64,000 bases of DNA, taken from assembly GCF_017814915.1 (NCBI RefSeq), contig NZ_JAGIPZ010000001.1:435559-499558 (forward strand), written 5' to 3'. Below the pieces are notes generated by a model that was given only the letters and a program-made list of their open reading frames with translations, ran no database searches and had not been told where the DNA came from. Positions 4,870-44,205 of the stretch are shown here, one piece after another (the first letter of the stretch is position 1; every line of letters starts with the position of its first letter). The position numbers and the translations under genes were made by a program. This DNA is from Herbaspirillum sp. LeCh32-8. GTDB lineage: Bacteria > Pseudomonadota > Gammaproteobacteria > Burkholderiales > Burkholderiaceae_D.

Positions 4870-5489
4870 CGATACTCTCCGAGATCGAAACCGATGCGCT
4901 GACCGAAATCTTCAACGTCGGCGCCGGGCGCGCTGCGCTGAGTTTGTCGGAAATCGTCGGCGATGAGGTTCGGTTATCCGTGCCGTCGGTCGAAGTGCTG
5001 CGCACGCGCGAAATCGATGAGCGCGTGCTGGCGCTGGCCAATGCGCGCTTCGCCACCGTCAGTCAGATTTTCGACGGCCCCTTCGATGCCGAGGCGGTGC
5101 TCTTGTTCACGGAAGAGCACGCGCTGGAGATCGTACGCGACATGATGGGCTCGCAGATGAGTCTGGACGAACTCGCCGAGTTCGAGCAAGAAGCCATGTG
5201 CGAGCTGGGCAACATCATCCTTAACGCCTGCCTGTCGGCCATGGCGGATATGCTGGGCATCACGCTCAATAGCTCGCTGCCGAACTACGCCGTCTCTTCC
5301 CCGGCCGAGATTTCCACGCGCCTGGCTACCGGCGAAAGCGAGGAGACCTACGTCCTGGTACTGCATATCGATCTGGTGATCGAAAAGCACCACACCGAAG
5401 GGCACCTGATCTTCCTGTTGAGCTCGACTTCGCTCAACAAACTCGTGACGCACATCCAGCGTTACCTGAACAACATCGCGCTGTCATGA
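4866..5489 (+). CDS. CheC-type receiver phosphatase
   Basis: 207 aa. Both copies of the CheC/CheX/FliY active-site pattern (D/S-x3-E-x2-N-x22-P) fit exactly by spacing. The first is Asp10, Glu14, Asn17, Pro40; the second is Glu109, Glu113, Asn116, Pro139, with Glu at the usual Asp/Ser position. Such proteins hydrolyse phospho-Asp on receiver domains. The start is GTG at 4866, overlapping the receiver gene's stop; the end overlaps the GGEEF gene as ATGA. The neighbour receiver is the obvious substrate. That pairing is inferred from the overlap, not shown. Confidence 0.85.
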   Translation: MTILSEIETDALTEIFNVGAGRAALSLSEIVGDEVRLSVPSVEVLRTREIDERVLALANARFATVSQIFDGPFDAEAVLLFTEEHALEIVRDMMGSQMSLDELAEFEQEAMCELGNIILNACLSAMADMLGITLNSSLPNYAVSSPAEISTRLATGESEETYVLVLHIDLVIEKHHTEGHLIFLLSSTSLNKLVTHIQRYLNNIALS

Positions 5490-6448
5490 CCAGCATCGTT
5501 CCAGGCCGCTTTGCCGCTGAAGACGTCTATGACAATCTGAACTTCGGATTGGTCATGCTGGACAAGGACTTCAACATCCTGCTCTGGAACCAATGGATGG
5601 TCAGGCACAGTCGTGTGCCGGCCGAAGGCGCCCTGAACGCCAACTTCATCGCGCTGTTCAACCAGCAGCTGGCGCCGGGCTTCCTGCGTGCGCTGTCCAA
5701 TACCATCAGTTACGGCTTGCCCGCGATGTTGTCGAGTGCCTTGCATCGTTCGCCGCTGCCGCTGTATCACGTCTATGTGCCCAACGACGGCGAGCCGCCG
5801 GCGCGCATGGTGCAATCGGTGGTGATGACGCCGATTGCGGCGCCGGACGGCAGCCGTTCCTGCCTGATTCAGATCAGCGACTCCAGCCACTCGGTCAAGC
5901 GCGAGAAAATCCTGATGTCGCACTCCGAGGCGCTCAAACGCCAGGTGGTGACCGACGGTCTGACCGGCGTGAACAACCGTCGCTTCTTCGACGAGAACTA
6001 CACGCTGGCGTTGCAGCAGGCCATGCGCAACCACAGCACGTTGTCGCTGTTCATGATCGACATCGATTTCTTCAAGCAATACAACGATCACTACGGACAC
6101 GTTGCCGGCGACCGCGTCCTCAAGCGGGTGGCCGAGACGCTCAAGGAGCAGCTGGCTTCGCCCACCGACGTATTTGCGCGATACGGCGGAGAGGAGTTCA
6201 TCATTCTCTCGGGCGGGCTGGAGAAGGACCAGGCGGCGGAGTTCGGCGAGCGCTTGCGCGAAAGTGTCAGTGCATTGGGAGAACCTCACGACAAATCGCT
6301 GGTCAACCGCTGTATGACGATCAGCGTTGGCGTATGTACTCGTGCTCCGGGCGAGGAGGTAGACGGCCGCAACCTGCTGGCCACCGCCGATGCCGCGTTG
6401 TACCGCGCCAAACTGGGCGGGCGCAACAAGGTGGTCTCCACCGACTGA
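5486..6448 (+). CDS. Diguanylate cyclase with N-terminal PAS-like sensor domain
   Basis: 320 aa. Residues of about 10-130 look like a PAS fold (NLNFGLVMLDKDFNILLWNQ). A GGDEF domain fills about 155-315, with substrate motif DGLTGVNNRRFFDE and active site RYGGEEF at 232-238, so it should make cyclic-di-GMP. The inhibitory I-site RxxD is incomplete: Asp is present five residues before GGEEF but the Arg position is Ser, so product inhibition may be absent. It is the last gene of the receiver-CheC-cyclase trio, overlapping the phosphatase gene by four bases. No membrane segment is seen. Confidence 0.92.
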   Translation: MTSIVPGRFAAEDVYDNLNFGLVMLDKDFNILLWNQWMVRHSRVPAEGALNANFIALFNQQLAPGFLRALSNTISYGLPAMLSSALHRSPLPLYHVYVPNDGEPPARMVQSVVMTPIAAPDGSRSCLIQISDSSHSVKREKILMSHSEALKRQVVTDGLTGVNNRRFFDENYTLALQQAMRNHSTLSLFMIDIDFFKQYNDHYGHVAGDRVLKRVAETLKEQLASPTDVFARYGGEEFIILSGGLEKDQAAEFGERLRESVSALGEPHDKSLVNRCMTISVGVCTRAPGEEVDGRNLLATADAALYRAKLGGRNKVVSTD

Positions 6449-6514
6449 GGGCGGCCAGACCGGCATTAATCGCCCGGTCAGTCGTCAAGGCAGCCGTCGA
6501 TTACTGCAGCAAAC

Positions 6515-6536
6515 ATGGCGCGCGAGGTCGCGCCAT
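6515..6536. terminator. Possible weak terminator hairpin after the GGEEF gene
   Basis: Perfect 8-bp stem ATGGCGCG / CGCGCCAT with a 6-base loop, but no T run follows, so termination is uncertain. Confidence 0.35.
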
Positions 6537-6771
6537 TATCCACCGATCCATCAATTGTCCAATTCTCGGGCAATTTATAGGAAACCCTTACCCGGCAAGG
6601 CTGTCCGATCTTCAGTCGCGGCTTATCAACAGACTTGTTCACAGCTTTTGTGAGTAACTTTTTTGCCGGCGTCTAACCCGCGTGGGGCGGGGATTTGCTC
6701 ACTTTGCGTATAATGCCGGGCTGCCGCACTGTTGATGGCGTGCAAATAATTTCCTTCCTGATAATGACCTG
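6537..6771. other. Intergenic region with DnaA-box-like cluster and a -10 element
   Basis: No gene is seen. Three 9-mers each one base away from TTATNCACA lie within 35 bases: TTATCAACA (6623-6631), TTGTTCACA (6635-6643) and, on the other strand, TTACTCACA (6649-6657). A TATAAT at 6709-6714 is a likely -10 for the secreted protein gene at 6772; its -35 is weak. Confidence 0.35.
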
Positions 6772-12407: not shown

Positions 12408-13457
12408 ATGAGCGCACTGCAAACACTGTTCGGCATCAACATTCCCCTGATCCAGGCTCCGATGGCGGGCGTCCAGCTGCATGGACTGGCGGCGGCGGTG
12501 TCCAATGCCGGCGCACTGGGTTCGCTGCCTTGCGCGATGCTGGCGCCAGCTGCCCTGCAGGAGGAGCTGACCAAGCTGCGCGCGGCCACCGACCAGCCCT
12601 ATAACGTCAACTTCTTTGCCCACACCAATCCCGAGCCGGACGCGGCCCGCGAGCAGGCGTGGCGCCAGGCGCTGGGGCCGTACTACGAAGAGTTCGGCAT
12701 CGATCCCGCGTCGATCGGCGCCGGTCCCGGTCGCCAGCCCTTCAGTGCGCAAGTGGCCGACTTGCTGGAAGAGTTCAAGCCCAAGGTGGTCAGTTTTCAT
12801 TTCGGCTTGCCGGCGCCGGAGCTGATGCAGCGCGTGCGTGCCTGGGGTTCGCGCATCATTGCGTCGGCCACCACGGTGGAGGAGGGCAAGTGGCTGGCCG
12901 AGCGCGGCGTCGATGCCGTCATCGCTCAAGGCGTGGAAGCGGGCGGGCATCGCGGCATTTTCCTGTCCGACGATCTCACCACGCAGATCGGCACCTTCAG
13001 TCTTGTGCCGCAGCTCGCGCGCGCGCTCAAGGTGCCGGTGATCGCCGCCGGCGGCATTGCGGATGCCAACGGCGTGGCCGCGGCGATGGCGTTGGGCGCG
13101 GCAGGGGTGCAGGTCGGCACGGCCTACATGCTGTGTCCCGAGGCCATCACCAGTGCCTTGCATCGTACAGCGCTCAAGAGCGACCGCGCGCGCCATACGG
13201 CCTTGACCAATTTATTTACCGGTCGTCCGGCGCGCGGCATCGTCAATCGCGTCATGCGTGAGCTCGGGCCTATCAGCGCACTGGCGCCGGCATTTCCCCT
13301 GGCGACATCAGGTATCGCGCCGCTGCGCGCCAAGGCCGAGGCCGCCGGCATCGATGATTTCACTTCAATGTGGTCGGGGCAGAACGCCGACGGCTGCAAG
13401 GAGATTCCCGCTGCGGAGCTGACACGTGAGTTGGCCGCAGGATTCGCCGCACACTGA
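12408..13457 (+). CDS. Nitronate monooxygenase (2-nitropropane dioxygenase family)
   Basis: 349 aa FMN-dependent TIM-barrel enzyme that oxidises alkyl nitronates, such as propionate 3-nitronate, to carbonyl compound and nitrite. Motifs are the N-terminal IPLIQAPMAG, VDAVIAQGVEAGGHRG (containing the characteristic GGHRG), PVIAAGGIADANGVAAAMALGAAGVQVGTAY and a C-terminal WSGQ. The frame opens at 12336, but the ATG at 12408 (MSALQTLFGINIPLI) fits the family. The ribosome site is weak. It stands alone. Confidence 0.9.
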   Translation: MSALQTLFGINIPLIQAPMAGVQLHGLAAAVSNAGALGSLPCAMLAPAALQEELTKLRAATDQPYNVNFFAHTNPEPDAAREQAWRQALGPYYEEFGIDPASIGAGPGRQPFSAQVADLLEEFKPKVVSFHFGLPAPELMQRVRAWGSRIIASATTVEEGKWLAERGVDAVIAQGVEAGGHRGIFLSDDLTTQIGTFSLVPQLARALKVPVIAAGGIADANGVAAAMALGAAGVQVGTAYMLCPEAITSALHRTALKSDRARHTALTNLFTGRPARGIVNRVMRELGPISALAPAFPLATSGIAPLRAKAEAAGIDDFTSMWSGQNADGCKEIPAAELTRELAAGFAAH

Positions 13458-13665
13458 AGCGCGCAGCAGCAGTCGGTTTTGTTATCGCCAGATGAGAAAG
13501 GCTGGGGCGGATCGTCGGGAAGGCGTCACAGACGTAAAATTGTTTGAGAATCTGCCCCGCTGTAAGCAATATTTAATGAATTGGTGGTATCGTCCCGGCA
13601 TCAGAACTATCGTGAATCCACATGGGAACGCGCGGATTCGAACAACGCCTTGTTTAAAGATAGCA

Positions 13666-13887
13666 ATGGATAAAACTCAGAAAGCGGAATTGGAGCGCAT
13701 CCAGAAGGAACTGGTGGATGCTCACAATAAGGCTGCCTGGCAAATGGCGGCTACCATCATCAAGGCATCGCTGGTCAAGGACGGCATGGACCAGCCACCG
13801 ACTGCAGCCGAGCTGGCCGATCTCAACGCCACCATCACCAACCTGCGCAGCGTCGCCGAAGACGCGCTGGAGCTGCTCAAGCGCTGA
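13666..13887 (+). CDS. Small helical protein of unknown function
   Basis: 73 aa from the ATG at 13666 (MDKTQKAELERIQKELVDAH). The whole protein is charged and predicted helical, with heptad-like spacing in ELERIQKELVDAHNKA and DLNATITNLRSVAEDALELLKR. No signal peptide or membrane segment. Not recognised. It lies immediately before the tRNA-Leu promoter and the mobile element's left end, on the host side (GC-rich codons). Confidence 0.6.
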   Translation: MDKTQKAELERIQKELVDAHNKAAWQMAATIIKASLVKDGMDQPPTAAELADLNATITNLRSVAEDALELLKR

Positions 13888-13983
13888 GCCTTCCCGCAGC
13901 GATAGCGCGGCACATGGCCCAGGCCATCGTGCCGTTTTTATTTGCAGGGATACAAAACATTCCCGGGAACGGCCTGAACTCGC

Positions 13984-13992
13984 TGTTATAAT
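13984..13992 (+). promoter_or_regulatory. Extended -10 promoter of the (now split) host tRNA-Leu
   Basis: TG-T-TATAAT, an extended -10 with the hexamer at 13987-13992, about 39 bases before the tRNA 5' half. No good -35 is visible. Transcription from here would run through the broken 5' half into the element, towards its intact tRNA-Leu and recombinase genes. Confidence 0.6.
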
Positions 13993-14030
13993 GCGAACCT
14001 TTTTCGGCGACCGATCGCCGGATTCCACCC

Positions 14031-14075
14031 GCCTGAGTGGTGAAATTGGTAGACACAGCGGACTTAAAATCCGCC
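14031..14075 (+). pseudogene. 5' half of disrupted host tRNA-Leu (UAA)
   Basis: Contains acceptor strand GCCTGAG (14031-14037), the D arm and a complete anticodon stem-loop: GCGGA, loop CTTAAAA with anticodon TAA, TCCGC, then one C. The sequence then departs from any tRNA pattern at ACTTTCATG. The missing 3' part is at 19961-20013, where CTCAGGC pairs perfectly with GCCTGAG. Joined at the shared TCCGCC, the two pieces give a complete tRNA-Leu with long variable arm. Confidence 0.92.
14070..14075 (+). repeat. Left 6-bp core direct repeat TCCGCC
   Basis: Identical to the right copy at 19960-19965; probable crossover region of the recombinase. It lies in the 3' side of the anticodon stem of the split tRNA-Leu. 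Confidence 0.8.
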
Positions 14076-14103
14076 ACTTTCATGTTTTTCGGAGCTGGTA
14101 AAA

Positions 14104-14129
14104 ACTTTCACGTTAAATTAAAATGGACA
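14104..14129 (+). repeat. Left copy of 26-bp imperfect terminal inverted repeat
   Basis: Matches the complement of 19932-19957 at 22 of 26 positions. Conserved parts are ACTTTCA-G-TTAA and AAAATGGACA. A further left copy of just the outer 9 bp (ACTTTCATG) sits 28 bases outward at 14076-14084, next to the core. Confidence 0.75.
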
Positions 14130-14152
14130 ACTGGTAGCTGATGTTCATTCCT

Positions 14153-14239
14153 GCCGGGATGGCGAAATTGGTAGACGCATGGGACTTAAAATCCCCCGCC
14201 CGTTAGGGCGTGCGGGTTCGATTCCCGCTCCCGGCACCA
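14153..14239 (+). tRNA. tRNA-Leu (UAA) carried by the mobile element
   Basis: Complete gene. Acceptor GCCGGGA (14153-14159) pairs with TCCCGGC (14229-14235), the discriminator is A, and CCA is encoded at 14237-14239. The D stem is GCG/CGC, the anticodon loop CTTAAAA has TAA at 14187-14189, the long variable arm has stem GCCC/GGGC, and the T stem is GCGGG/CCCGC. The anticodon stem has one outer T-C mismatch (positions 27-43). It differs from the split host gene in acceptor, variable and T arms, so it is a foreign isoacceptor, not a duplicated copy. It ends 31 bases before the first recombinase start. Confidence 0.95.
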
Positions 14240-14270
14240 TCTGGATATTGGCCTTTAGGATTGAGGGTCC

Positions 14271-15677
14271 ATGCCAGAGTCCAAAGAAAAACGTCGAGAA
14301 ATAATTCCGCTACTCAGTCCCACATGTGTCAGTGAGTCGGTTTCCCCTGGTGATGTCCAGGTTAAATACCGTCATAGGGGACGAGAAGTTTCCTACCACC
14401 GTCGTTACGCTGGCCGAAAAAATGGCCCGCGTGAGATTCCCCGTGTTCCAATCGTTCTCACTGTGGACGGAAGTCCTTGGGTTGAAGCTAGTCTTTACTT
14501 GCTCGACCGCGCCAAAGGAAAGCCACTAACCACAGGCTCCCTTGCCCCAATAGCAGCCGATTTGGCCACCTACCGAGCGTGGCTCGATGAATATGGCTTC
14601 GAGTGGGACGATTTCGATAGTCACGACAAATACGCCACTCCGACTTATCAATACCGTGCGTTTCTAGGCGACGAGATGGATGCCGGCCGGCTGAAGAGAA
14701 GCCTCGCTCGGAGGCGTATCTCTAGTCTTCAAGGCTTTTACAGGCACATGATGGAGCACCCCCGCTACGGTTTTGAGCCCGTCCATCGGCCGTGGCGGGA
14801 GAAGAAGATTGGGCTTCCTTCTACTGATGGCAAGGGTTTTGAGCGAATCATTGAGGTTACCACTACTGATTTGGCTGTCGCTGGAGCCGAGACTGGAACT
14901 GCGTGGGATTTGACCATCAATGATGGTGGACAGCTGCGACCACTTCCCATGGTCGAACAGGTAGCGCTGTTCAATGCACTGAAATCGCTCGGAAACACAG
15001 AGTATTGGTTAATGCATCTTGTATCAGTCATCACAGGCGCTCGCATCCAGACCGTGCTCACGCTGAGACTCAAATACTTTCTTGCACCGCCGACGGCTCA
15101 AGGCAAGCTATTCAAACTTCAATGCGGGCCAGGAACAGGAATCGACACGAAATTCAACAAAGCCAAAGTTTGGCTGTCCATCCCGAGAGCGCTGTATGAG
15201 GCGCTGCACACATATGCCAAATCTGAGCGTGCGCTAAGGCGCCAAGATAAGTCAGTGACTGGTCGTGATGGCGATAACTATCTGTTCCTCACTCAGCATG
15301 GAAACCCGTTCTATGAGGCCAAGGACGACCTGCTGAAAATTGGGCGAGGCAAGAAAACTCAGAAAGTGGCCCAGGGCGTATGGGACTTTATCAATAAGCA
15401 AGTAATCCCCGAAGTGCGAAAGACACTCCCAGACTTCTCGTACCGATTCCACGACATGCGCGCAACCTTTGGCCTAAATTGGTGCGACGCTATCGAGCGC
15501 ATCGAAGGCGGGAAGCATAGCTACCAATGGGCACTGAATCAGTTAAAGCAGCGCATGTGGCATAACGATTCAAAAACGACAGAGCATTACCTAAAGTATC
15601 GTCAAAATCACGAGCTGCTCGAAAAGGCCGAAGAAGCTTATGGATTGTGGCTGAGTGGATTGATTGAGAGCACGTGA
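14271..15677 (+). CDS. Tyrosine recombinase 1 of the element
   Basis: 468 aa with the full catalytic set by position: Arg258 in TGARIQTVL, His394 and Arg397 in HDMRATF, His431 in RMWHND and nucleophile Tyr440 in TEHYLKY. The N-terminal half (about 1-210) would be the DNA-binding arm. The ATG follows GAGGG and lies only 31 bases after the element's tRNA-Leu, so tRNA and recombinases may share a transcript. It overlaps the next gene by four bases (GTGA). Codon use is less GC-rich than in host genes. It probably catalyses strand exchange at the TCCGCC core. Confidence 0.9.
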   Translation: MPESKEKRREIIPLLSPTCVSESVSPGDVQVKYRHRGREVSYHRRYAGRKNGPREIPRVPIVLTVDGSPWVEASLYLLDRAKGKPLTTGSLAPIAADLATYRAWLDEYGFEWDDFDSHDKYATPTYQYRAFLGDEMDAGRLKRSLARRRISSLQGFYRHMMEHPRYGFEPVHRPWREKKIGLPSTDGKGFERIIEVTTTDLAVAGAETGTAWDLTINDGGQLRPLPMVEQVALFNALKSLGNTEYWLMHLVSVITGARIQTVLTLRLKYFLAPPTAQGKLFKLQCGPGTGIDTKFNKAKVWLSIPRALYEALHTYAKSERALRRQDKSVTGRDGDNYLFLTQHGNPFYEAKDDLLKIGRGKKTQKVAQGVWDFINKQVIPEVRKTLPDFSYRFHDMRATFGLNWCDAIERIEGGKHSYQWALNQLKQRMWHNDSKTTEHYLKYRQNHELLEKAEEAYGLWLSGLIEST

Positions 15678-17479
15678 AGATGAAGGTTAATGCTGGTTCA
15701 AGGAGCAGAATGCCTGCTCTCGCATTCCCTTGCGAAGAAGTCCCGGAGCTGTTCAAGCCTGAGAATAGCGTTCTGGAGCTGACGGACGGCTCGCGCATTT
15801 CTATTTTCAAACTTTGCTACTTAGTCCGCCCGACTGATGGGAGGTCGAACGGGGATTACACAGAAAAGTCGGCTCTCCGAATAGCAGCGCTTCCGGGCGT
15901 CCTATTGAAGTTGTCAAATTTTTTTAGAGTCAAAGGCCTCAAAAGTCCCACGCAAGCCAACTACCTTCGTTTCTTACAGAATTTTTTTGATTGGGCTGAT
16001 TTAGCCGAAAATGAGGGGCGATTCGAGGCGGTGCTTACGGATACAGGGCTAGCGGTGGCGGCCATCGAAGGCTATAACGCATGGCAAAAAGCAATGGTTC
16101 AAGTGGGCAAGTTGGGGCTAAATACCGCTTCGGCTCACGTAAAGGCGCTCCGCACAATGTTGTCGGAATTGCATGAGCAGGACTATGCCGAAGAAACTGA
16201 AGTTCTGGCTGCATCTAATCGCACAAAAAAGCCCACGGTTCCTGCTGAATCATCTGATGTGCAACATTTTCTTTCTGCCGTTGCTGGTGCTTTCGACCTT
16301 TGTGCGGAAATAGTATTAAAGCCGGGCTACGCTGAGGAAAAAGAATGGGAGGTAGTGGCCACTAATGGCGCTACAGAGCAAAAGTATCTTTTTCGTCGCG
16401 ATGCTGACGGGATGGTGGCCCTGGACCTGGCCTGCATGTGTTTCGCAGCCCTGGCCATCGGGGACTCAGGTACAAACGAGGCTCAAATCACTCGAATGGA
16501 CTATTCGGACGAGATTTACGAACAATTGGCTGATGCGAACATCGTCACTATGCGTCGTAAAGAAGTTAAGTTCCGAGCGGGAGGTAAAGAGGTGCCCGTC
16601 CACTTCACCGCGGTTGTGCGGACACGTTTCCATACGTACTTGGCGTTGCGCACTCGAATTCTCGAACTTTTTCCGAATGATGACTTGGAAGCCGCCTTGT
16701 TTCTTCGGTTGGTTGTCGCTCAGAAAACTGAATTTGCTTCGTTTAACGCCATTGGCTGCAAACGGGTCACCGACCTCTTAGACACGCTTCGAGGACGATT
16801 CAATACTTGGTTTGGTTTGCCGCTGCCTAAGGTCACTCTACGGCAACTGCGATTGCACACTGGGAACAAATTCACTGAAATAGCCGGACCCAAAGTGTCT
16901 GCTGAACGCTTGGGTCACTCCTTGCGAACTGCCATTAGGAACTACAACAACGGGCCCCAGAGCACGCGAAACAGCGAGCTCGGGGATTTCTTTGGTTCCG
17001 TCGCTAAGAGCGCTGTAGAGGCTGCCAGGACCGGTGACGAACAAGTACCGCCAGACACTGAACTGGTAACGGGCGCCTGCAAGGAGCGAGGTAAGCCCCA
17101 GCTCTTGACTGCAGCTCCTGTTACCGTCGAGCCAGACTGTCGTAAAACAGAGGGGTGCCTGTTTTGCGCCCAATACCGAGTGCACGCAGACGAAAAAGAC
17201 ATGAGGAAACTGATTAGTTGTAATTATGTTATGAAGCGTCTTGCATTGAGAAGTGGCTCAGCGAACGACGTCGAGATGATTTATCAAGCAATCATGGCGC
17301 GGGTGCATACACTCCTGGCCGAGCTCAGCCAGCGAAGTCCTGACGTATTTGAAGCGGTTAAGAAGGATGTTCAGGTAAATCAGAATCTAAGCCCATATTG
17401 GGCCGCACGCTTCCGACAACTTTGCCTTCTCGGTGTAATTACCGCGCCTGTGGACTCTCAAGAAGGAGCCGGCGCATGA
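15674..17479 (+). CDS. Tyrosine recombinase-like protein 2, degenerate active site
   Basis: 601 aa from a GTG overlapping the previous stop (ATG at 15680 also possible). The C-terminal recombinase fold is recognisable: LRQLRLHTG (Arg390, Arg393), LGHSLRTAIRNYNNG with His415 and Tyr424. However, the first catalytic Arg is replaced by Asn268 in GDSGTNEAQITRM, and the usual HxxR His is Arg390. A Cys-rich tail (DCRKTEGCLFCAQYRV...SC) may bind zinc. It may have a structural rather than catalytic role in a hetero-complex. It overlaps recombinase 3 as ATGA. Confidence 0.85.
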   Translation: MKMKVNAGSRSRMPALAFPCEEVPELFKPENSVLELTDGSRISIFKLCYLVRPTDGRSNGDYTEKSALRIAALPGVLLKLSNFFRVKGLKSPTQANYLRFLQNFFDWADLAENEGRFEAVLTDTGLAVAAIEGYNAWQKAMVQVGKLGLNTASAHVKALRTMLSELHEQDYAEETEVLAASNRTKKPTVPAESSDVQHFLSAVAGAFDLCAEIVLKPGYAEEKEWEVVATNGATEQKYLFRRDADGMVALDLACMCFAALAIGDSGTNEAQITRMDYSDEIYEQLADANIVTMRRKEVKFRAGGKEVPVHFTAVVRTRFHTYLALRTRILELFPNDDLEAALFLRLVVAQKTEFASFNAIGCKRVTDLLDTLRGRFNTWFGLPLPKVTLRQLRLHTGNKFTEIAGPKVSAERLGHSLRTAIRNYNNGPQSTRNSELGDFFGSVAKSAVEAARTGDEQVPPDTELVTGACKERGKPQLLTAAPVTVEPDCRKTEGCLFCAQYRVHADEKDMRKLISCNYVMKRLALRSGSANDVEMIYQAIMARVHTLLAELSQRSPDVFEAVKKDVQVNQNLSPYWAARFRQLCLLGVITAPVDSQEGAGA

Positions 17480-19392
17480 CAACCGGAGTGGCCGATTTTT
17501 CGATACTGACTGACCCGACGGCGGAAGCTTTAGTGCCTGGTTCGAGCCGGACGTACTTTCCACCTAATCACGTGGTCACCAGAGATAGCATTGGAAATCC
17601 AGTATCTCGTTATTCAGAAGAGTCTTGGGACTTTGCCGCCATTTCGACAGCTCGAGAAACTCGAGTATGGTTTTATGGACAGACATCAGGTGTTGACCAT
17701 CCGGAGCTCGATTGGCTTCTGAGAGAGCAAGGCAAGGCTCTAGTTTGCCAGTATCTCGAAGGTGGTTCTATTCGCGCTTTTTCTACGATATATCGGGTCA
17801 ATCTGGTATGCGTGAAATGGTGTGAATATGCTCGAACGTGCGAAATGGAGCTGTTTGACGTTCTGTGCGCACCAGACTTGTTAAAAGAACATTTGCTCAG
17901 TTTGAGCTCTGTCGACATATCTCTCACGGGCTCTCTTATTACCGCTCTGTGGAAGGGGCGAAAGCGATTTGGTATTAAGCCAAACCGTGCGGCGTTGAGA
18001 GCTGTCATGACGGAGGTGTATGCTTCGCTGCCAGAAAACCAGCAGACACCCCTCATTCCAAGCAAAATTTACACCGCAATCCTTGGGAATCTCATTTCCC
18101 AGATGGATGTTATTGAGCATAACCTTGACCATCTCTTAGCCGCATTTCAGACTTGCCGAGACTTGGAGGTTCAACTAGACGGTGAACGCGATAGAAATCG
18201 GCGAACTGCGGCCCGGCGTGCATCCCTGGACGGATATGTGGAAAAGCTGCGCGAGCTTGGCTACAAAAGCGGTTCGATAGAAAACTTCGTCCGAGGGATG
18301 ATTAACAAATATCAATCGACCTTGATGTTTGTCGTCATCGCCTTCACTGGAATGCGCGTAGGTGAGTGCGTAAAACTACCGGTGGAAAATGTCCTATCCA
18401 AAGTCATGCACCTTGATACGGCGCATTGGCTAATAAATGGCTTCACTCATAAATTACATTTTGGCATCAAAAAAGAGGCCAGTTGGGTCACGGTAGAAGA
18501 AGGGCGTCGGGCAGTGCAGATTGCTTTACGTATTTCCAACGCTGTATATGACGGTGTCGGCCGGCCGGACGGAGAGCGCATACTTTTCTGTTCGTCCGGA
18601 AATCCATGTGAAATCAAAGGCAGTACACAGCTCATCGAAGGGCGGTCATGGGTGCAATCTATTGTCTGTCCGATAATTTCTCAAGAGGACCTCAACGAGC
18701 TTGAGATTATTCGTCTCGACAGGGATTGGGAGCTTGATGGCATTGCAGTTGGACACGTTTGGCCGATTGCCCCTCACCAACTTAGGCGTTCGCTCGCGGT
18801 CTACGCACATCGCTCGGGAATGGTATCGCTGCCCAGTTTGAAGGCCCAACTGCAGCATATTACGGAAGAAATGACGCTGTACTATTCCTCAGGATTCCAA
18901 GATGCCGCGAATGTGGTCTTTGACCGAGACCATTTCTCTTACGACTGGAATTCCGCTAATGCCGAGTCATCGTATTTCGGCATGGCACTAGGAGTTTTGC
19001 TCAATAACGAGGAGCTGCTTGGTGCTGGGGCAAATTGGCTCATGAGCGACCGTGTTCAGGCTTCGCCGGTGTCTGCTCACTCGCGGGCCGAATCGCTCGA
19101 GTTATTTAAAAAAGGACAACTGGCCTTCAATGAGACGCCATTGGGCGGCTGTATGTCGACCGAGCCATGCAAGACGATGCCCTTGGAGCCCATTCAATAC
19201 GAATGCCTTGAAAGTAACTGTCCCAATTTGGTTGTCTTCGGCAAGCGCCTAGACCTCGTGATACGCACTCAAGAGAACGTTGTCTCTGTGCTTGCTTCGA
19301 GCAGCCCAGATGGCGTCGAGCACCGGCTCGAGGCCGCTAACCTGCAAACACTTCTAAACGCACGTATGCGCCTCAAGCGAGTCGACCAATGA
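17476..19392 (+). CDS. Tyrosine recombinase 3 of the element
   Basis: 638 aa from the ATG at 17476 (AAGGAG before it; overlaps the previous stop). The catalytic set is intact: Arg294 in FTGMRVGE, His434 and Arg437 in PHQLRRS, His461 in QLQHITEE and Tyr469 or Tyr470 in LYYSSG. The C-terminal region has four spaced Cys (GGCMSTEPC ... ECLESNC), a probable zinc site of the kind seen in TnpB-like recombinases. A longer open frame to 17398 is ignored. It overlaps the small downstream gene by four bases. Confidence 0.9.
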   Translation: MTTGVADFSILTDPTAEALVPGSSRTYFPPNHVVTRDSIGNPVSRYSEESWDFAAISTARETRVWFYGQTSGVDHPELDWLLREQGKALVCQYLEGGSIRAFSTIYRVNLVCVKWCEYARTCEMELFDVLCAPDLLKEHLLSLSSVDISLTGSLITALWKGRKRFGIKPNRAALRAVMTEVYASLPENQQTPLIPSKIYTAILGNLISQMDVIEHNLDHLLAAFQTCRDLEVQLDGERDRNRRTAARRASLDGYVEKLRELGYKSGSIENFVRGMINKYQSTLMFVVIAFTGMRVGECVKLPVENVLSKVMHLDTAHWLINGFTHKLHFGIKKEASWVTVEEGRRAVQIALRISNAVYDGVGRPDGERILFCSSGNPCEIKGSTQLIEGRSWVQSIVCPIISQEDLNELEIIRLDRDWELDGIAVGHVWPIAPHQLRRSLAVYAHRSGMVSLPSLKAQLQHITEEMTLYYSSGFQDAANVVFDRDHFSYDWNSANAESSYFGMALGVLLNNEELLGAGANWLMSDRVQASPVSAHSRAESLELFKKGQLAFNETPLGGCMSTEPCKTMPLEPIQYECLESNCPNLVVFGKRLDLVIRTQENVVSVLASSSPDGVEHRLEAANLQTLLNARMRLKRVDQ

Positions 19393-19796
19393 ACAAGGCT
19401 ACAGATAAGTATTTCGAGGCGTTAAAGCGGCTCCAGGCGGCGGGCAAGAAGATAAATAACGATACCGTAGCTATTGAGGCTGGTTCCAAGAAGGGAAGCA
19501 TCAAAAGCGGGCGTCCTTCCCATGAGGCTCTCGTTCAAGCCATTGACGCAGCCGCCGCGGCCGCCAAGGATGCAAGGGCTTCTGACCCGGTGCCCGGACT
19601 TCGCGAAGACGTCAAGGGCCTCCGGCAGCGGCTGGATGAGGCCTTGGAGCGTGAAATCAACCTATTGGATGAATTGCTGACCGTGCGTTATGAGCGTGAT
19701 ACTTTGCGCGAAGAAGTCAAATCACTGCGCAGTGGAAACCTGCAGTTGTTCTCCAGGAAGTCCTCCGGCAAAAAGCCGCACCCAGAGGCTGACTAA
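19389..19796 (+). CDS. Small coiled-coil accessory protein (TnpC-like position)
   Basis: 135 aa. An N-terminal basic segment (about 1-50) contains a helix-turn-helix-like stretch, TDKYFEALKRLQAAGKKINNDTVAIEAGSKKGSIKSGRPS (too weak to name). It is followed by an Ala-rich stretch and a coiled coil (about 70-120, LREDVKGLRQRLDEALEREINLLDE). By size and place it matches TnpC of Tn554, an accessory orientation/efficiency factor. Similarity to KfrA-like DNA-binding proteins is also possible. Last gene of the element. Confidence 0.75.
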   Translation: MNKATDKYFEALKRLQAAGKKINNDTVAIEAGSKKGSIKSGRPSHEALVQAIDAAAAAAKDARASDPVPGLREDVKGLRQRLDEALEREINLLDELLTVRYERDTLREEVKSLRSGNLQLFSRKSSGKKPHPEAD

Positions 19797-19838
19797 GTCA
19801 CCTTGCTTGAGTAGATTGACGGATTGGCAAGGGTGGAA

Positions 19839-19940
19839 AAATGGACAGTATCACTCGCCTGTGTCCATTTCTGCGAATTTTTGATGGACATATGATTTTT
19901 CATAACTCCTTGATTTATTTATTGTTGGAAATGTCCATTT
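19839..19940. repeat. Subterminal AAATGGACA repeats at the right end
   Basis: The 9-mer AAATGGACA occurs at 19839-19847 (+), 19862-19870 (-) and 19932-19940 (-), with a close copy ATGGACA at 19884-19890. One copy is at the left end, 14121-14129. These are probably accessory or arm-type binding sites for the element's recombinases. Confidence 0.6.
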
Positions 19941-19957
19941 TCTGTTAACATGAAAGT
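19932..19957 (-). repeat. Right copy of 26-bp imperfect terminal inverted repeat
   Basis: Read on the minus strand it begins ACTTTCATGTTAAC and ends AAAATGGACA; 22 of 26 bases match the left copy at 14104-14129. Confidence 0.75.
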
Positions 19958-19959
19958 AC

Positions 19960-19965
19960 TCCGCC
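19960..19965 (+). repeat. Right 6-bp core direct repeat TCCGCC
   Basis: Second copy of the core; its last bases restart the host tRNA-Leu sequence. Confidence 0.8.
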
Positions 19966-20013
19966 GCTTACCCGTGAGGGGGCGTGCCGGTTCGACCCCG
20001 GCCTCAGGCACCA
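19961..20013 (+). pseudogene. 3' half of disrupted host tRNA-Leu (UAA)
   Basis: Contains the end of the anticodon stem, the variable arm, the T arm GCCGG-TTCGACC-CCGGC, the acceptor strand CTCAGGC (20003-20009), the discriminator A and CCA (20011-20013). It lacks acceptor 5' strand, D arm and anticodon and has no promoter of its own. Confidence 0.92.
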
Positions 20014-20153
20014 TGCGGCAAGCTCCGCAGCCCGCGACGGCGGGTATTCCTTTCCATTCATGCTGATCAATACGCTTGCGCCGCGCATTTGCCGCGTCGG
20101 CAACGGCAGCTGTACGCATGTGTCGTTACGGCAAGTCGCGGCGGGATAGTAAA

Positions 20154-21053
20154 ATGTCGACTTCATCCACCAGACGAGCCGAGACCATGACTGAAGCTGT
20201 AGTGAAAACAGTGCAGTGCATTTCGCCCGCCGGATTGCACACGATGGCCTACAAGGAATGGGGCGACGCCCGCAATCCCAATGTGCTGGTGTGCGTGCAT
20301 GGCGTGACGCGCGTGTCGGACGACTTCGATCGCATGGCGCGCGAGCTGTGCGATACCTACCGCGTGGTGTGTCCCGATGTGGTCGGGCGCGGCCGTTCCG
20401 GTCGCCTGAAGAATCCTCAGTTCTATACCGTGCCGCAATATGTGAGCGATATGGTGACGCTGCTGGCGCGCCTGGATGCGGAGATCGTCGACTGGTTCGG
20501 CACCTCGATGGGCGGCCTGATCGGCATGGGCCTAGCCTCGCTGCCGGAAAACCCGATCCGCCGCCTGGTGTTGAACGACATCGGCCCGTCCATCAACGGA
20601 TCGGCGCTGGCCCGCATCGGCGAGTACATCGGCCAGGATGTGCGCTTCGATACCTTTGAAGAAGCCGCCAATTACATCCGTACGATTTCCGCCAGTTTCG
20701 GTACCCACAGCGACGAGGAGTGGCACAAGCTGGCCCACGACGTGCTGCGCCAGAACGACGAGGGCAAGTGGGTGCGCCACTACGACCTGTCGTTGGCGGT
20801 GCCGTTCAAGCTGACCACGCCCGAGGTCGCCAGCGCCGCCGAGCAGATGCTGTGGGCCGCCTATGATGCGATTCGTTGTCCGACCTTGCTGGTGCGCGGC
20901 GCCCATTCCGACCTGCTGTTGCCCGAGGTGGCGCAGCAAATGACGCAGCGCGGCCCCAAGGCCAGGCTGGTCGAGCTGCCCGACGTCGGCCATGCGCCGA
21001 CCTTCATGCATGCCGACCAGATCGAGCTGGCCAAGCAGTTCCTGCTGGGCTGA
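20154..21053 (+). CDS. Alpha/beta hydrolase
   Basis: 299 aa from the ATG at 20154; the ATG at 20187 (MTEAVVKTVQCISPAG) is an equally plausible start. Alpha/beta-hydrolase fold with oxyanion VCVHGVTR, nucleophile Ser in WFGTSMGGLIG, probable acid Asp in RGAHSDLLLP and catalytic His in DVGHAPTF. The natural ester or C-C bond substrate is unknown. It is followed on the same strand by ridA and relA and may be co-transcribed with them. It is the first host gene after the mobile element. Confidence 0.85.
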   Translation: MSTSSTRRAETMTEAVVKTVQCISPAGLHTMAYKEWGDARNPNVLVCVHGVTRVSDDFDRMARELCDTYRVVCPDVVGRGRSGRLKNPQFYTVPQYVSDMVTLLARLDAEIVDWFGTSMGGLIGMGLASLPENPIRRLVLNDIGPSINGSALARIGEYIGQDVRFDTFEEAANYIRTISASFGTHSDEEWHKLAHDVLRQNDEGKWVRHYDLSLAVPFKLTTPEVASAAEQMLWAAYDAIRCPTLLVRGAHSDLLLPEVAQQMTQRGPKARLVELPDVGHAPTFMHADQIELAKQFLLG

Positions 21054-42561: not shown

Positions 42562-44205
42562 ATGACCATCGAGCAGACCCTCCCGCTGCAGGAAAAGAAG
42601 AAGCTGAGCTTGTCGCCCTGGCTGGTGATCGCCGTCGGCCTGGCGGCGATGTACATCCCCAGCTTCATCGACCTGTTCCACGGCGTGTGGGGCACCGAGC
42701 GCAATGCGCACGGGCCCATCGTGCTGGCGGTGGCCTGCGTCTATCTGTTCGTGCGGGTGCGCCAGCTGCGCGAGGAGGGCCTGATCGAACGTCGTCCCGC
42801 GCCGCTGGCCGGCGGCCTGGTGCTGCTGTTCGGTTTGCTGTGCTTCGCCCTGGGGCGCTCGCAGACGGTGCTGTTCATGGAGGCGGGATCGCTGATCCCG
42901 ATTCTGGCCGGACTGGTGCTGATGTTCTTCGGCGTGCGCACCTGCCGCCGCCTGTGGTTCGCGTTCTTCTTCATGCTGTTCATGGTGCCGCTGCCGGCCT
43001 CGGTGGTGGACCTGCTGACCCAGCCGCTGAAGATCGGCGTGTCCTTTGCCTCCGAGCACCTGCTGCGCGCCTTCGATTACCCGATCGCCCGCAGCGGCGT
43101 GATCCTGTACATGGGCCAATACCAGCTGCTGGTGGCCGACGCCTGCGCCGGCTTGAACTCGCTGTTCACGCTGGAGGCGCTGGGCCTGCTCTACATGAAC
43201 CTGGTGCGGCACCAGTCGCTGCTGCGCAATACCACGCTGGCGCTGCTGATCGTGCCGATCTCGTTTACCGCCAACACGGTGCGCGTGGTGGTGCTGGCGC
43301 TGATCACCTACTACATGGGCGATGCGGCGGGGCAGGGCTTCCTGCACGGCTTCGCCGGCATGCTGCTGTTCCTGGTGGCGCTGGGCCTGATCATCGGCCT
43401 GGACAGCGTGCTGCGCCTGATCGCGGTGCGTTACGCCCGCTGGCGCGGCATGGCCGAACCGGAGGCGGTGCCGCGCGTGCGCAAGCAGGCCCGCGAGGAG
43501 CGCAGCGGCCTGTTCGCCATCGGCCTGCCGACGGCGCTGGTGCTGGCGGTCGGCATGGTGGCCTCGGTCGGCGCAGCGCATGCGCTGGCCCCGCATGAGG
43601 CCAATGTGGTCAAGACCACCAGGTTCGACTCCTTCGTGCCGGCGCAATTCGGCGAGTGGCGCGAAGTGCCGTCGCCTTATGTGCAGGTCAGCGTGGACGT
43701 GCAGGACGGCACAACGCGCGACTACGACCAGCCCTATGACGACGTGCTCAGCCGCACCTACGTCAACAGCCGCGGCGAGCAGGTGATGCTGGCGCTGGCC
43801 TATGCCAACGAACAGATGCAGGACGTGAAGATCCACCCGCCCGAGGTGTGCTACATCGCCCAGGGCTTCGTGATGATGGGCGGCGCGCCGCTGGCCATGC
43901 AGACCGCCGAAGGCAAACCGGTCACGGGGCAGCGCTTCCTGGCGCGCAACAACGACCGGCTGGAAGCGGTCAGCTACTGGATGCGCATCGGCGACGCCTT
44001 CCCGGACGGCGGCCTGGCCGCGCGCTGGAAGATCTTCACCGCCGGCATGGCCGGGCGGATTTCCGACGGCATCCTGGTGCGCGCCTCCAGCCTGGTGCAG
44101 AACCCGTCCCAGCAGGAGGGCGCCTATGCGCTGCAGCAGCGCTTCCTGAAGGACCTGGAGGCCGCCATGCACCGCGGCCATCCGGGGCTGATGGTGCCAG
44201 CCTGA
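42562..44205 (+). CDS. Exosortase B fused to EpsI
   Basis: 547 aa. Residues of about 1-310 are a multi-pass exosortase with Cys in [21 protein letters not shown], Arg in [14 protein letters not shown] and His in [12 protein letters not shown], the expected catalytic triad. A cytoplasmic linker, one membrane segment (about 320-345) and a periplasmic EpsI-type domain (about 350-547, [23 protein letters not shown]) follow. Exosortases cut PEP-CTERM sorting signals; no PEP-CTERM protein is encoded here. XrtB type is inferred from the EpsL/D/E/F/G company. Confidence 0.88.

Follow-up and report, generated by a model that had tools for sequence, protein, structure and literature searches.

Organization of the Locus

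The window, that is, the whole stretch of 64,000 nucleotides of Herbaspirillum sp. LeCh32-8 DNA that was analysed, contains a 5.9-kb element (14076-19965) that interrupts the tRNA-Leu(UAA) gene of the host; the break lies in the 3' arm of the anticodon stem and is flanked by two copies of TCCGCC. The 5' half of the gene (14031-14075, plus strand) runs from the acceptor strand GCCTGAG to the anticodon stem, whose end is the left 6-bp core (14070-14075, plus strand), placed from the sequence and by comparing the junction with relatives; the right copy of the core (19960-19965, plus strand) precedes the 3' half (19966-20013, plus strand), which ends in CTCAGGC and ACCA. Joined, the halves measure 93 nt, are typed by ARAGORN as tRNA-Leu(taa), and pair at 7/7 acceptor positions. 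Both halves and the shared hexamer were thus present as the initial annotation had described them, and so was the failure of the insertion to rebuild either half: taken by itself, the left half reaches 24.2 bits where the gathering score is 29, and the right half has no listed match. The split arrangement is not a product of chance, because it recurs in independent assemblies and the joined sequence is shaped like the intact gene of relatives. A further claim, that restoration by a short repeat is impossible at such a site, stands for this break and does not carry over to the family, since elements of the same family also break the T stem, and a distant relative the D loop. As for transcription, a -10-like box of the host gene, TATAAT (13987-13992, plus strand), is a putative promoter that would read via the broken half into the element; a motif like TATAATGCG lies 5' of the native tRNA-Leu gene in relatives.

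Four co-directional genes (14271-19796), in an order kept in relatives, specify three tyrosine recombinases and one small protein. The first recombinase (14271-15677, plus strand; 468 aa) is GinA-like, with the R, HxxR, H and Y motifs present; the second (15674-17479, plus strand; 601 aa) is a GinB-like tyrosine-recombinase-like protein without the first catalytic Arg; the third (17476-19392, plus strand; 638 aa from the ATG at 17476) is GinC-like, with a weak match to Pfam Phage_integrase, below the cut-off; and the small protein (19389-19796, plus strand; 135 aa) is GinD-like. The first catalytic Arg is missing from the second recombinase over 36 aligned rows and present in the third over 37. 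Terminal inverted repeats bound the element, ACTTTCATGTT on the left (14076-14086, plus strand) and AACATGAAAGT on the right (19947-19957, minus strand), and four TGGACA/TGTCCA sites near the right end (at 19842, 19862, 19885 and 19932; 19842-19937, plus strand) are presumed to be arm-type recombinase sites, with spacings of 20, 23 and 47 versus 20, 23 and 48 in the related elements L100 and L106. Only 169 nt separate the stop codon of the last gene from the end of the right core, and no cargo is found there.

Homologue searches were made with the first recombinase only, of the three; its closest relatives (72-81%) are from Paraburkholderia. At E ≤ 1e-95, a cut-off strict enough to miss more distant members as well, none of the 144 genomes of the genus to which the genome of L114 belongs gave a match. 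No NCBIfam model of the Gamma-mobile trio family matched the four element proteins or 15 homologues of the first recombinase. No intron family matched up to E = 1 in 13400-20700, and nothing there marked the insert as a group I intron.

The Carried tRNA-Leu(UAA)

A full tRNA-Leu(UAA) gene with an encoded CCA, taken to be a rescue tRNA, lies inside the element at 14153-14239 (plus strand), 78 nt past the left junction, as had been claimed; it is called by ARAGORN, matches Rfam RF00005 with 58.3 bits, and is supported by covariation. Its earlier description as a foreign isoacceptor with different arms is right for the body, which is identical to the host tRNA-Leu(UAA) at 66 of 87 aligned positions, and does not fit the anticodon, which is that of the host gene. 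Upstream of it, a -10-like TAAAAT followed by the imperfect palindrome TGGACA...TGTTCA (14119-14152, plus strand) may act as its promoter and binding site; no sigma-70 consensus promoter was found at the left end of the element, where the best hexamer pair was not above shuffled sequences (140 of 200 were as good).

Judged from their aligned sequences, the carried tRNAs covary as functional tRNAs do: 98.5% of the cells are paired and 13 of 24 pairs have changed on both sides, values reached by none of 500 shuffles; a further measure, the number of further pair types, was matched by 19 of 500. TCCGC is absent from the anticodon stem in nine of the 11 carried UAA tRNAs, including all eight from elements that attack the anticodon stem. 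A general rule of a recoded, target-immune tRNA was considered and rejected, because the T-stem attackers L100 and L106, and also the distant element L171, keep their own core sequence in the carried tRNA.

Host Genome and Native Locus in Relatives

The host genome has 50 tRNAs by Rfam, 43 of which were typed by anticodon; the other seven span 73-74 nt, too short for leucine tRNAs. A second intact tRNA-Leu(UAA), whose presence would have weakened the initial annotation, was not found in this genome, rated 100% complete, by pattern searches that could miss a divergent second tRNA; the sole intact copy found is that of the element. Regarding codon use, the host gene read as infC has two UUA codons.

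All 20 native loci of same-genus relatives whose full sequence was read have the 93-nt counterpart at this position, unbroken. In a same-genus relative, the tRNA-Leu(UAA) gene contains a group I intron-like insert. In seven same-genus genomes the native position holds another tRNA-Leu(UAA), and these were considered as fossils of reversed insertions; in the four that were compared (L081-L084), the orientation is one that native loci show as well, with collinear promoter and flanks, so that no element is implied. A match with three mismatches in another genome (G003) is a hairpin and not a tRNA.

Related Elements Elsewhere

The search for other elements with a tRNA-Leu near the recombinases was positive: in ten more, a tRNA-Leu(UAA) stands immediately ahead of the first recombinase; nine of these visibly split a host gene, giving, with the window, 11 carriers and ten visibly split tRNA-Leu(UAA) genes; in the remaining one (L103) the tRNA is carried and the split host gene was not identified. 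The break point is in the anticodon stem, in either orientation, or in the T stem (L100, L106), and the element orientation is opposite in L097, L105, L109 and L202. Both tRNA halves could be read in the window and in L100, L106, L108, L244/L245 and L171; in L097, L104, L105 and L109 the contig ends before the second half, and the stretches examined for L202 did not show it. The halves are about 38.5 kb apart in L108 and about 45.9 kb apart in L245. In the genomes of eight other carriers (all except those of L097 and of L244, G988), a pattern search for a further UAA gene found none in seven, while in the eighth a contig ends inside the gene; conversely, an intact UAA gene is kept in seven of eight genomes with a tRNA-less related element.

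Nested among the UAA carriers is a clade (L098, L099, L102, L107) with no tRNA, inserted at ychF; an icd insertion site was considered for these four and discarded, since the upstream protein instead reads as what we take to be YchF. L201, another relative inside the carrier group, is at another site and has no tRNA, a loss or absence that the tree test does not count. In the distant element L171, a tRNA-Leu(UAG) is split, a tRNA-Leu(UAG) is carried at the other end, and the direct repeat is TGGTAG. Other three-recombinase loci of the genus and order (L089-L096, L206-L209) showed no tRNA-Leu in the neighbourhood of the first recombinase; a tRNA-Arg call in L148 lies inside an ORF and was taken as spurious.

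Interpretation

We consider it very probable that a GInt-like island has integrated, via its own tyrosine recombinases, into the single tRNA-Leu(UAA) gene of the host and inactivated it, and that integration is survivable because the island carries a whole tRNA-Leu(UAA). The sequences show a split gene, repeats both direct and inverted, relatives with an empty site, a genome in which no other intact UAA tRNA was found, and a tRNA cargo that recurs in elements at the same target and covaries structurally. According to the proposed mechanism, the recombinases would insert the element into the anticodon stem; an independently evolving tRNA-Leu(UAA), the first gene of the element, would be transcribed, probably on one transcript with the recombinases, and charged; decoding of UUA would make it essential; and excision would rejoin the two tRNA halves exactly. 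With the sole intact copy found being that of the element, the cell now appears to depend on it for tRNA-Leu(UAA), and the carried tRNA may in this sense be addiction-like.

The alternative that survives best, improbable as we judge it, is a carried tRNA that came along as chance cargo or a hitch-hiker, in a host that tolerates the loss of its gene otherwise, for example through low UUA use. Many mobile elements carry tRNAs without a known need, and UUA is indeed rare, with three codons across nine host genes counted; however, carriage follows the target, since tRNA-Leu(UAA) is the gene split by ten of the 11 UAA carriers and a tRNA is lacking in the nested ychF clade, the distant element does likewise with tRNA-Leu(UAG), and compensatory change preserves pairing in the carried tRNAs. 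Still less probable is a split gene that yields a functional tRNA, by joining of its halves or splicing of the 5.9-kb insert, with the carried gene as a spare. The full acceptor pairing of the halves would suit it, as would the tolerance of tRNA-Leu(UAA) genes for introns, exemplified by the same-genus relative above; but the insert, with its recombinase operon, terminal repeats and lack of intron family matches, is not intron-like, a substitution has already arisen in the anticodon loop of the broken half in L104, the element orientation is opposite in four carriers, and we know of no established trans-joined bacterial tRNA. Finally, that the ancestral gene of the host is the one at 14153-14239, with 14031/20013 an extra, decayed copy hit by accident, a reading suggested by the closeness of the two genes and their shared anticodon, is refuted as far as sampled and has almost no probability left, since element-free relatives hold the split 93-nt type at the locus and not the carried one, the carried signature occurs in one of 61 genomes (the host itself, none of 60 others), and the tRNA/first-recombinase neighbourhood recurs in related elements of other hosts.

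Returning to the island with its rescue tRNA, a wider reading is offered tentatively, as one that is possible and that we do not yet favour: tRNA-dependent integration may have evolved repeatedly in three-recombinase islands, with target and carried tRNA changing together; a tRNA without TCCGC would let anticodon-stem attackers spare their own lifeline; and cells would be dependent until exact excision, possibly with lasting replacement of an essential host tRNA.

These observations indicate that breaking and replacing a single-copy tRNA is not confined to phages and extends to recombinase-trio islands in Proteobacteria, whose targets include several points within one tRNA and, counting L171, two isoacceptors. 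The tRNA cargo becomes a predictor of the target. They also suggest how an island may land in essential, conserved DNA without restoring its target, and a natural route by which foreign tRNA genes could replace host ones. With the nested ychF clade, it becomes testable whether the target changed before the tRNA was lost or the reverse.

Comparison with Known Systems

Islander islands share a tyrosine integrase and a tRNA gene target and carry sequence that restores the split gene (PMC4383910), whereas the window element rebuilds it at neither junction. Closer is a Sinorhizobium meliloti case, in which a tRNA-Leu gene is likewise inactivated by integration in its centre and replaced by a tRNA, brought by the insert, that resembles that of another taxon (PMC11476347); it differs in being a prophage, in Alphaproteobacteria, and in replacing tRNA-Leu(UAG).

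As for GInt islands (ginABCD; Bardaji et al. 2017, PMC5385486), that paper describes an operon like the present one, with three recombinase genes and one for a small protein reading in one direction at one end of the island, as well as insertion at specific sites, short direct repeats, and a model with a 6-7 nt staggered cut; excision as a circle needs all four genes. The direct repeats of GInts are 10-17 nt and imperfect, against the shorter ones seen here, the perfect 6-bp TCCGCC of the window and TGGTAG of L171. Their cargo of 2.5-70 kb lies between ginD and the 3' end, and the approximately 38.5 kb of L108 and 45.9 kb of L245 may be cargo of this kind; because the window element has no cargo between its last gene and its right end, it is called GInt-like and not a GInt. 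The first Arg is missing from GinC in that paper and from the second recombinase here, a difference only if the published gene names correspond to those used here. The published GInt sites (ABC transporter, ssb) had no match by eye in the loci looked at; in L147, an ORF for an ABC-type ATPase (5370-6620) lies about 1.4 kb upstream, away from the junction. The word tRNA is absent from the main text of the GInt paper, and no description of a tRNA-dependent mode in GInt islands was found in the open-licence PMC literature, among the matches listed.

The initial annotation had stated that integrative elements normally restore the tRNA; this needs a published exception, the tRNA-dependent lysogeny of phages, such as phage Gaia with tRNA-Leu(CAA) (Guerrero-Bustamante and Hatfull 2024, PMC10865867). 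The window shares with it an attB in a host tRNA gene and a core too short (6 bp) to rebuild it. The published systems are temperate actinobacteriophages, while the window holds a Burkholderiales island with three recombinases, in which no phage gene was seen; its isoacceptor is UAA, its 6-bp core lies in the anticodon stem, and its tRNA directly precedes the recombinases. The 5.9-kb element, filled by its four recombination genes, is not a temperate phage; no viral contig encodes a relative, 50,697 phage records gave a single match (27.6%), and no head, tail or lysis families were found in L108 and L245, for which 20 of the 30 non-recombinase ORFs of at least 260 aa were compared with Pfam and 10 of these with PHROGs. 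In conclusion, the window element works like tRNA-dependent lysogeny and is not a member of it.

Split Host Gene and Carried tRNA

The 5′ half of the host tRNA-Leu(UAA) gene (GCCTGAG...AAAATCCGCC, 14031–14075) and its 3′ half (GCTTACC...CTCAGGCACCA, 19966–20013) were read directly from the sequence, and the 6 bp core TCCGCC is present at both junctions (14070–14075 and 19960–19965). The two core copies are 5,884 bp apart, or 5,890 bp including one copy, and the element has perfect 11 bp terminal inverted repeats, ACTTTCATGTT/AACATGAAAGT. The left half by itself scored 24.2, under the tRNA gathering score of 29; the 93 nt of the joined halves were called tRNA-Leu(taa) by ARAGORN. Inside the element lies an intact tRNA-Leu(UAA) with 58.3 bits (14153–14239, the carried gene), and the initial annotation, according to which the island breaks the host tRNA and supplies a replacement, was right about what it observed and, in essence, about what it means.

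After a 31-nt gap, the carried gene is followed by four co-directional, slightly overlapping genes: three encode tyrosine recombinases of 468, 601, and 638 aa and the fourth a 135-aa protein. The first and third recombinases had weak library matches, under cut-off, to XerC, XerA, and Pfam Phage_integrase, and they contain the R, HxxR, H, and Y motifs; library matches were absent for the second recombinase and the 135-aa protein. The first Arg is absent from the second recombinase in the window and in 36 of 36 aligned rows, and the last His of the third is substituted in the related loci L148 and L158.

As for the element ends, four TGGACA/TGTCCA sites occur 3′ of the last gene with a spacing of 20, 23, and 47 nt; the related elements L100 and L106 have them at 20, 23, and 48, L247 closes with the same sites at 31, 23, and 47, and in L212 two were found, not four. 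The sites recur although the first recombinases are only ∼46% identical or less, and they are putative recombinase arm sites.

Two other features of this genome were noted. A second, distant three-recombinase operon (L089, G000:C36:316000-330656) has a first recombinase ∼35–37% identical, and a search there for a tRNA found none. At 43551–43643, ARAGORN called a 93-nt tRNA-Ala(ggc) that lies within a long ORF and is absent from the Rfam list for the genome; it is probably spurious.

Native Locus in the Genus

Among 33 other genomes of the genus, 23 had the signature of the native gene, seven had a different UAA gene, and a UAA match was absent from three (G003, G023, and G027; pattern search, ≤2 mismatches). 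Full reading of 20 of the 23 native-signature genes revealed the split type, intact, in all 20; each locus adjoins the hydrolase gene found downstream in the window (tblastn), with variable tRNA orientation to it, and four (L055, L062, L072, and L077) also have the window's upstream gene. The signature of the carried gene occurred in one of 61 genomes searched, the window's own, and in none of the other 60. Because the native loci hold the intact split type and the carried signature is confined to this genome, the split gene is, by sequence comparison, ancestral at this locus and the carried gene arrived with the element, as first proposed.

Other variation occurs at this locus. In seven genomes of the genus (L053, L059, L064, L070, L073, L086, and L087), a tRNA-Leu(UAA) with another body, having acceptor GGGGGTA or GCCCCGA and anticodon stem AGGGA/TCCCT, occupies the position of the native one, and the native promoter and flanks are kept in the four compared. 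In G023 (L269:13095-13435), a tRNA-Leu(UAA) beside the same hydrolase gene has a ∼254-nt intron in its anticodon loop; the Rfam match to group I introns (E = 1.7e-7, 35.3 bits) is under the gathering score of 50. Finally, a stretch of G003 (L256, G003:C202) has a hairpin with GCGGACTTAAAATCCGC, the target sequence of the element, and ARAGORN detected no tRNA in it.

Probable Dependence on the Carried tRNA

The host assembly (5.03 Mb, completeness rating 100%) has 50 tRNAs by Rfam; the anticodon was typed for 43, and the other seven span 73–74 nt, a length below that of leucine tRNAs. The typed leucine tRNAs were CAA, CAG (two), UAG, GAG, and one intact UAA, that of the element, and a pattern search with ≤3 mismatches matched, besides the CAA gene, only the broken host half and the carried gene. 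Hence, by both approaches, the sole intact tRNA-Leu(UAA) found is the element's, in keeping with the replacement role given to it in the initial annotation. Under established decoding rules, UUA requires the UAA anticodon. This codon is rare in the nine host genes counted, with three occurrences, two of them within one gene that we take to be infC; the element's own four genes contain 14.

Regarding other genomes with a tRNA-carrying element, no further intact UAA gene was found by pattern search (≤2 mismatches) in those of L100, L103, L104, L106, L108, L109, and L202. In that of L105 (G437, a metagenome bin), a second contig (L228) holds an uninterrupted gene as far as the contig extends; this points either to an empty allele within a population of mixed filled and empty sites or to assembly overlap. 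Of the eight genomes with a related tRNA-less element, seven retain an intact UAA gene (L099, L101, L102, L107, L114, L128, and L201), and a match was not found in that of L098. The L110 genome also has one, and the sequence upstream of L110 is too short to judge tRNA carriage.

Related Elements

Scanning one genome for each species turned up 80 related loci, 72 with at least 300 bp upstream and eight too short to judge. ARAGORN identified a same-strand tRNA-Leu(UAA) just 5′ of the first recombinase in eight of the 72 (L097, L100, L103, L104, L105, L106, L108, and L109); a call in L148 was not counted, as it is within an ORF. Genome searches added L202 and L244, which brings the carriers to 11 with the window.

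A split host gene is visible in ten of the 11, and one was sought and not found at L103. Eight are broken at the anticodon stem; the element has the same orientation in the window, L104, L108, and L244 and the opposite one in L097, L105, L109, and L202, as expected for a target, GCGGACTTAAAATCCGC, with mirror-image arms. In L100 and L106, the T stem is broken in its 3′ arm. Both halves were recovered for L100, L106, L108 (∼38.5 kb apart), and L244/L245 (∼45.9 kb apart), and each rejoined pair was called tRNA-Leu(taa) by ARAGORN; the contig ends before the second half in L097, L104, L105, and L109, and for L202 the retrieved DNA showed no second half. Between the halves in L108 and L245, 20 of 30 ORFs of at least 260 aa were scanned; the genes there are of ordinary bacterial types, among them transposases and members of the GGDEF, chemoreceptor, catalase, and HlyD families.

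Elements of the same kind in Pseudomonas (L143, L144, L145, L152, L155, and L172) each follow an apparently truncated gene, presumably for an MscS-like channel, ending ...LHTVKVQN.

A distant case is L171, from a Methylophilus bin, a 5.9-kb element of the same four-gene kind with a first recombinase 30% identical. Its insertion point is the D loop of a tRNA-Leu(UAG), each junction has TGGTAG, and an intact tRNA-Leu(UAG) follows its last gene, on the opposite strand; the rejoined halves were called tRNA-Leu(tag) by ARAGORN. No further split tRNA came up when the surveyed recombinase loci were scanned by regular expression over 520 bp on the upstream side and 3.5 kb on the downstream side.

Evolution of the Carriers

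In a midpoint-rooted tree of 27 first recombinases, including ten of the 11 carriers (L244 left out), the carriers fall with the elements at a gene we take to be ychF in a single supported group (22 rows). Nested in this group, next to the carriers L104 and L108, are the ychF elements (L098, L099, L102, and L107 with L101, L110, and L128; 99/97); six of these seven have enough upstream sequence to judge, and a tRNA was found in none of the six. Carriers and ychF rows require one label change, leaving out L201, which lacks a tRNA and has no settled position. We read the group as tRNA loss along with a change of target, a direction that the tree, given its midpoint root, does not itself establish. 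Insertion in L098, L099, L102, and L107 is at the final ychF codons, so the closing residue(s) and the stop are specified by the junction; L201 (G597) interrupts an apparent aminotransferase gene.

The carried tRNAs diverge, with 65–71 of 83–87 positions identical between the window and the other carriers, and their stems are kept: 98.5% of cells are paired across the 11, and slid controls drop to 42–53%. Changes on both sides occur in 13 of 24 pairs; for both the paired fraction and this count, 0 of 500 shuffles came as high, and the further pair types were equalled by 19 of 500; these shuffle comparisons are inflated by relatedness.

Proposed Mechanism and Known Systems

Insertion, the split, the replacement gene, its recurrence in other elements, and stem covariation are established from sequence. 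The carried tRNA would be transcribed from a promoter at the element's left end, and in the window's orientation the host tRNA promoter (TATAAT at 13987) may also drive it; a single transcript with the recombinases is plausible. A search of 13900–14300 for a consensus promoter and terminator found neither. Several elements have a −10-like hexamer 26–28 bp 5′ of the tRNA; against shuffles, the best hexamer pair was clear only in L103 (0/200) and weak in L109 (30/200) and L244 (27/200). Core-to-core excision would restore the native gene.

Among the matches listed from the open-licence PMC literature, none described a replacement tRNA carried by a GInt or other island. The main text of the GInt paper does not contain the word tRNA (PMC5385486), and GInts and SEs are separate groups by PMC10214605. 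The recombination machinery of the element resembles that of GInts (PMC5385486), and it integrates in the manner of tRNA-dependent lysogeny (PMC10865867), with a similar prophage case in PMC11476347. What is new here is a family of recombinase-trio islands that integrates in this way, at several target points and, counting L171, in two isoacceptors.
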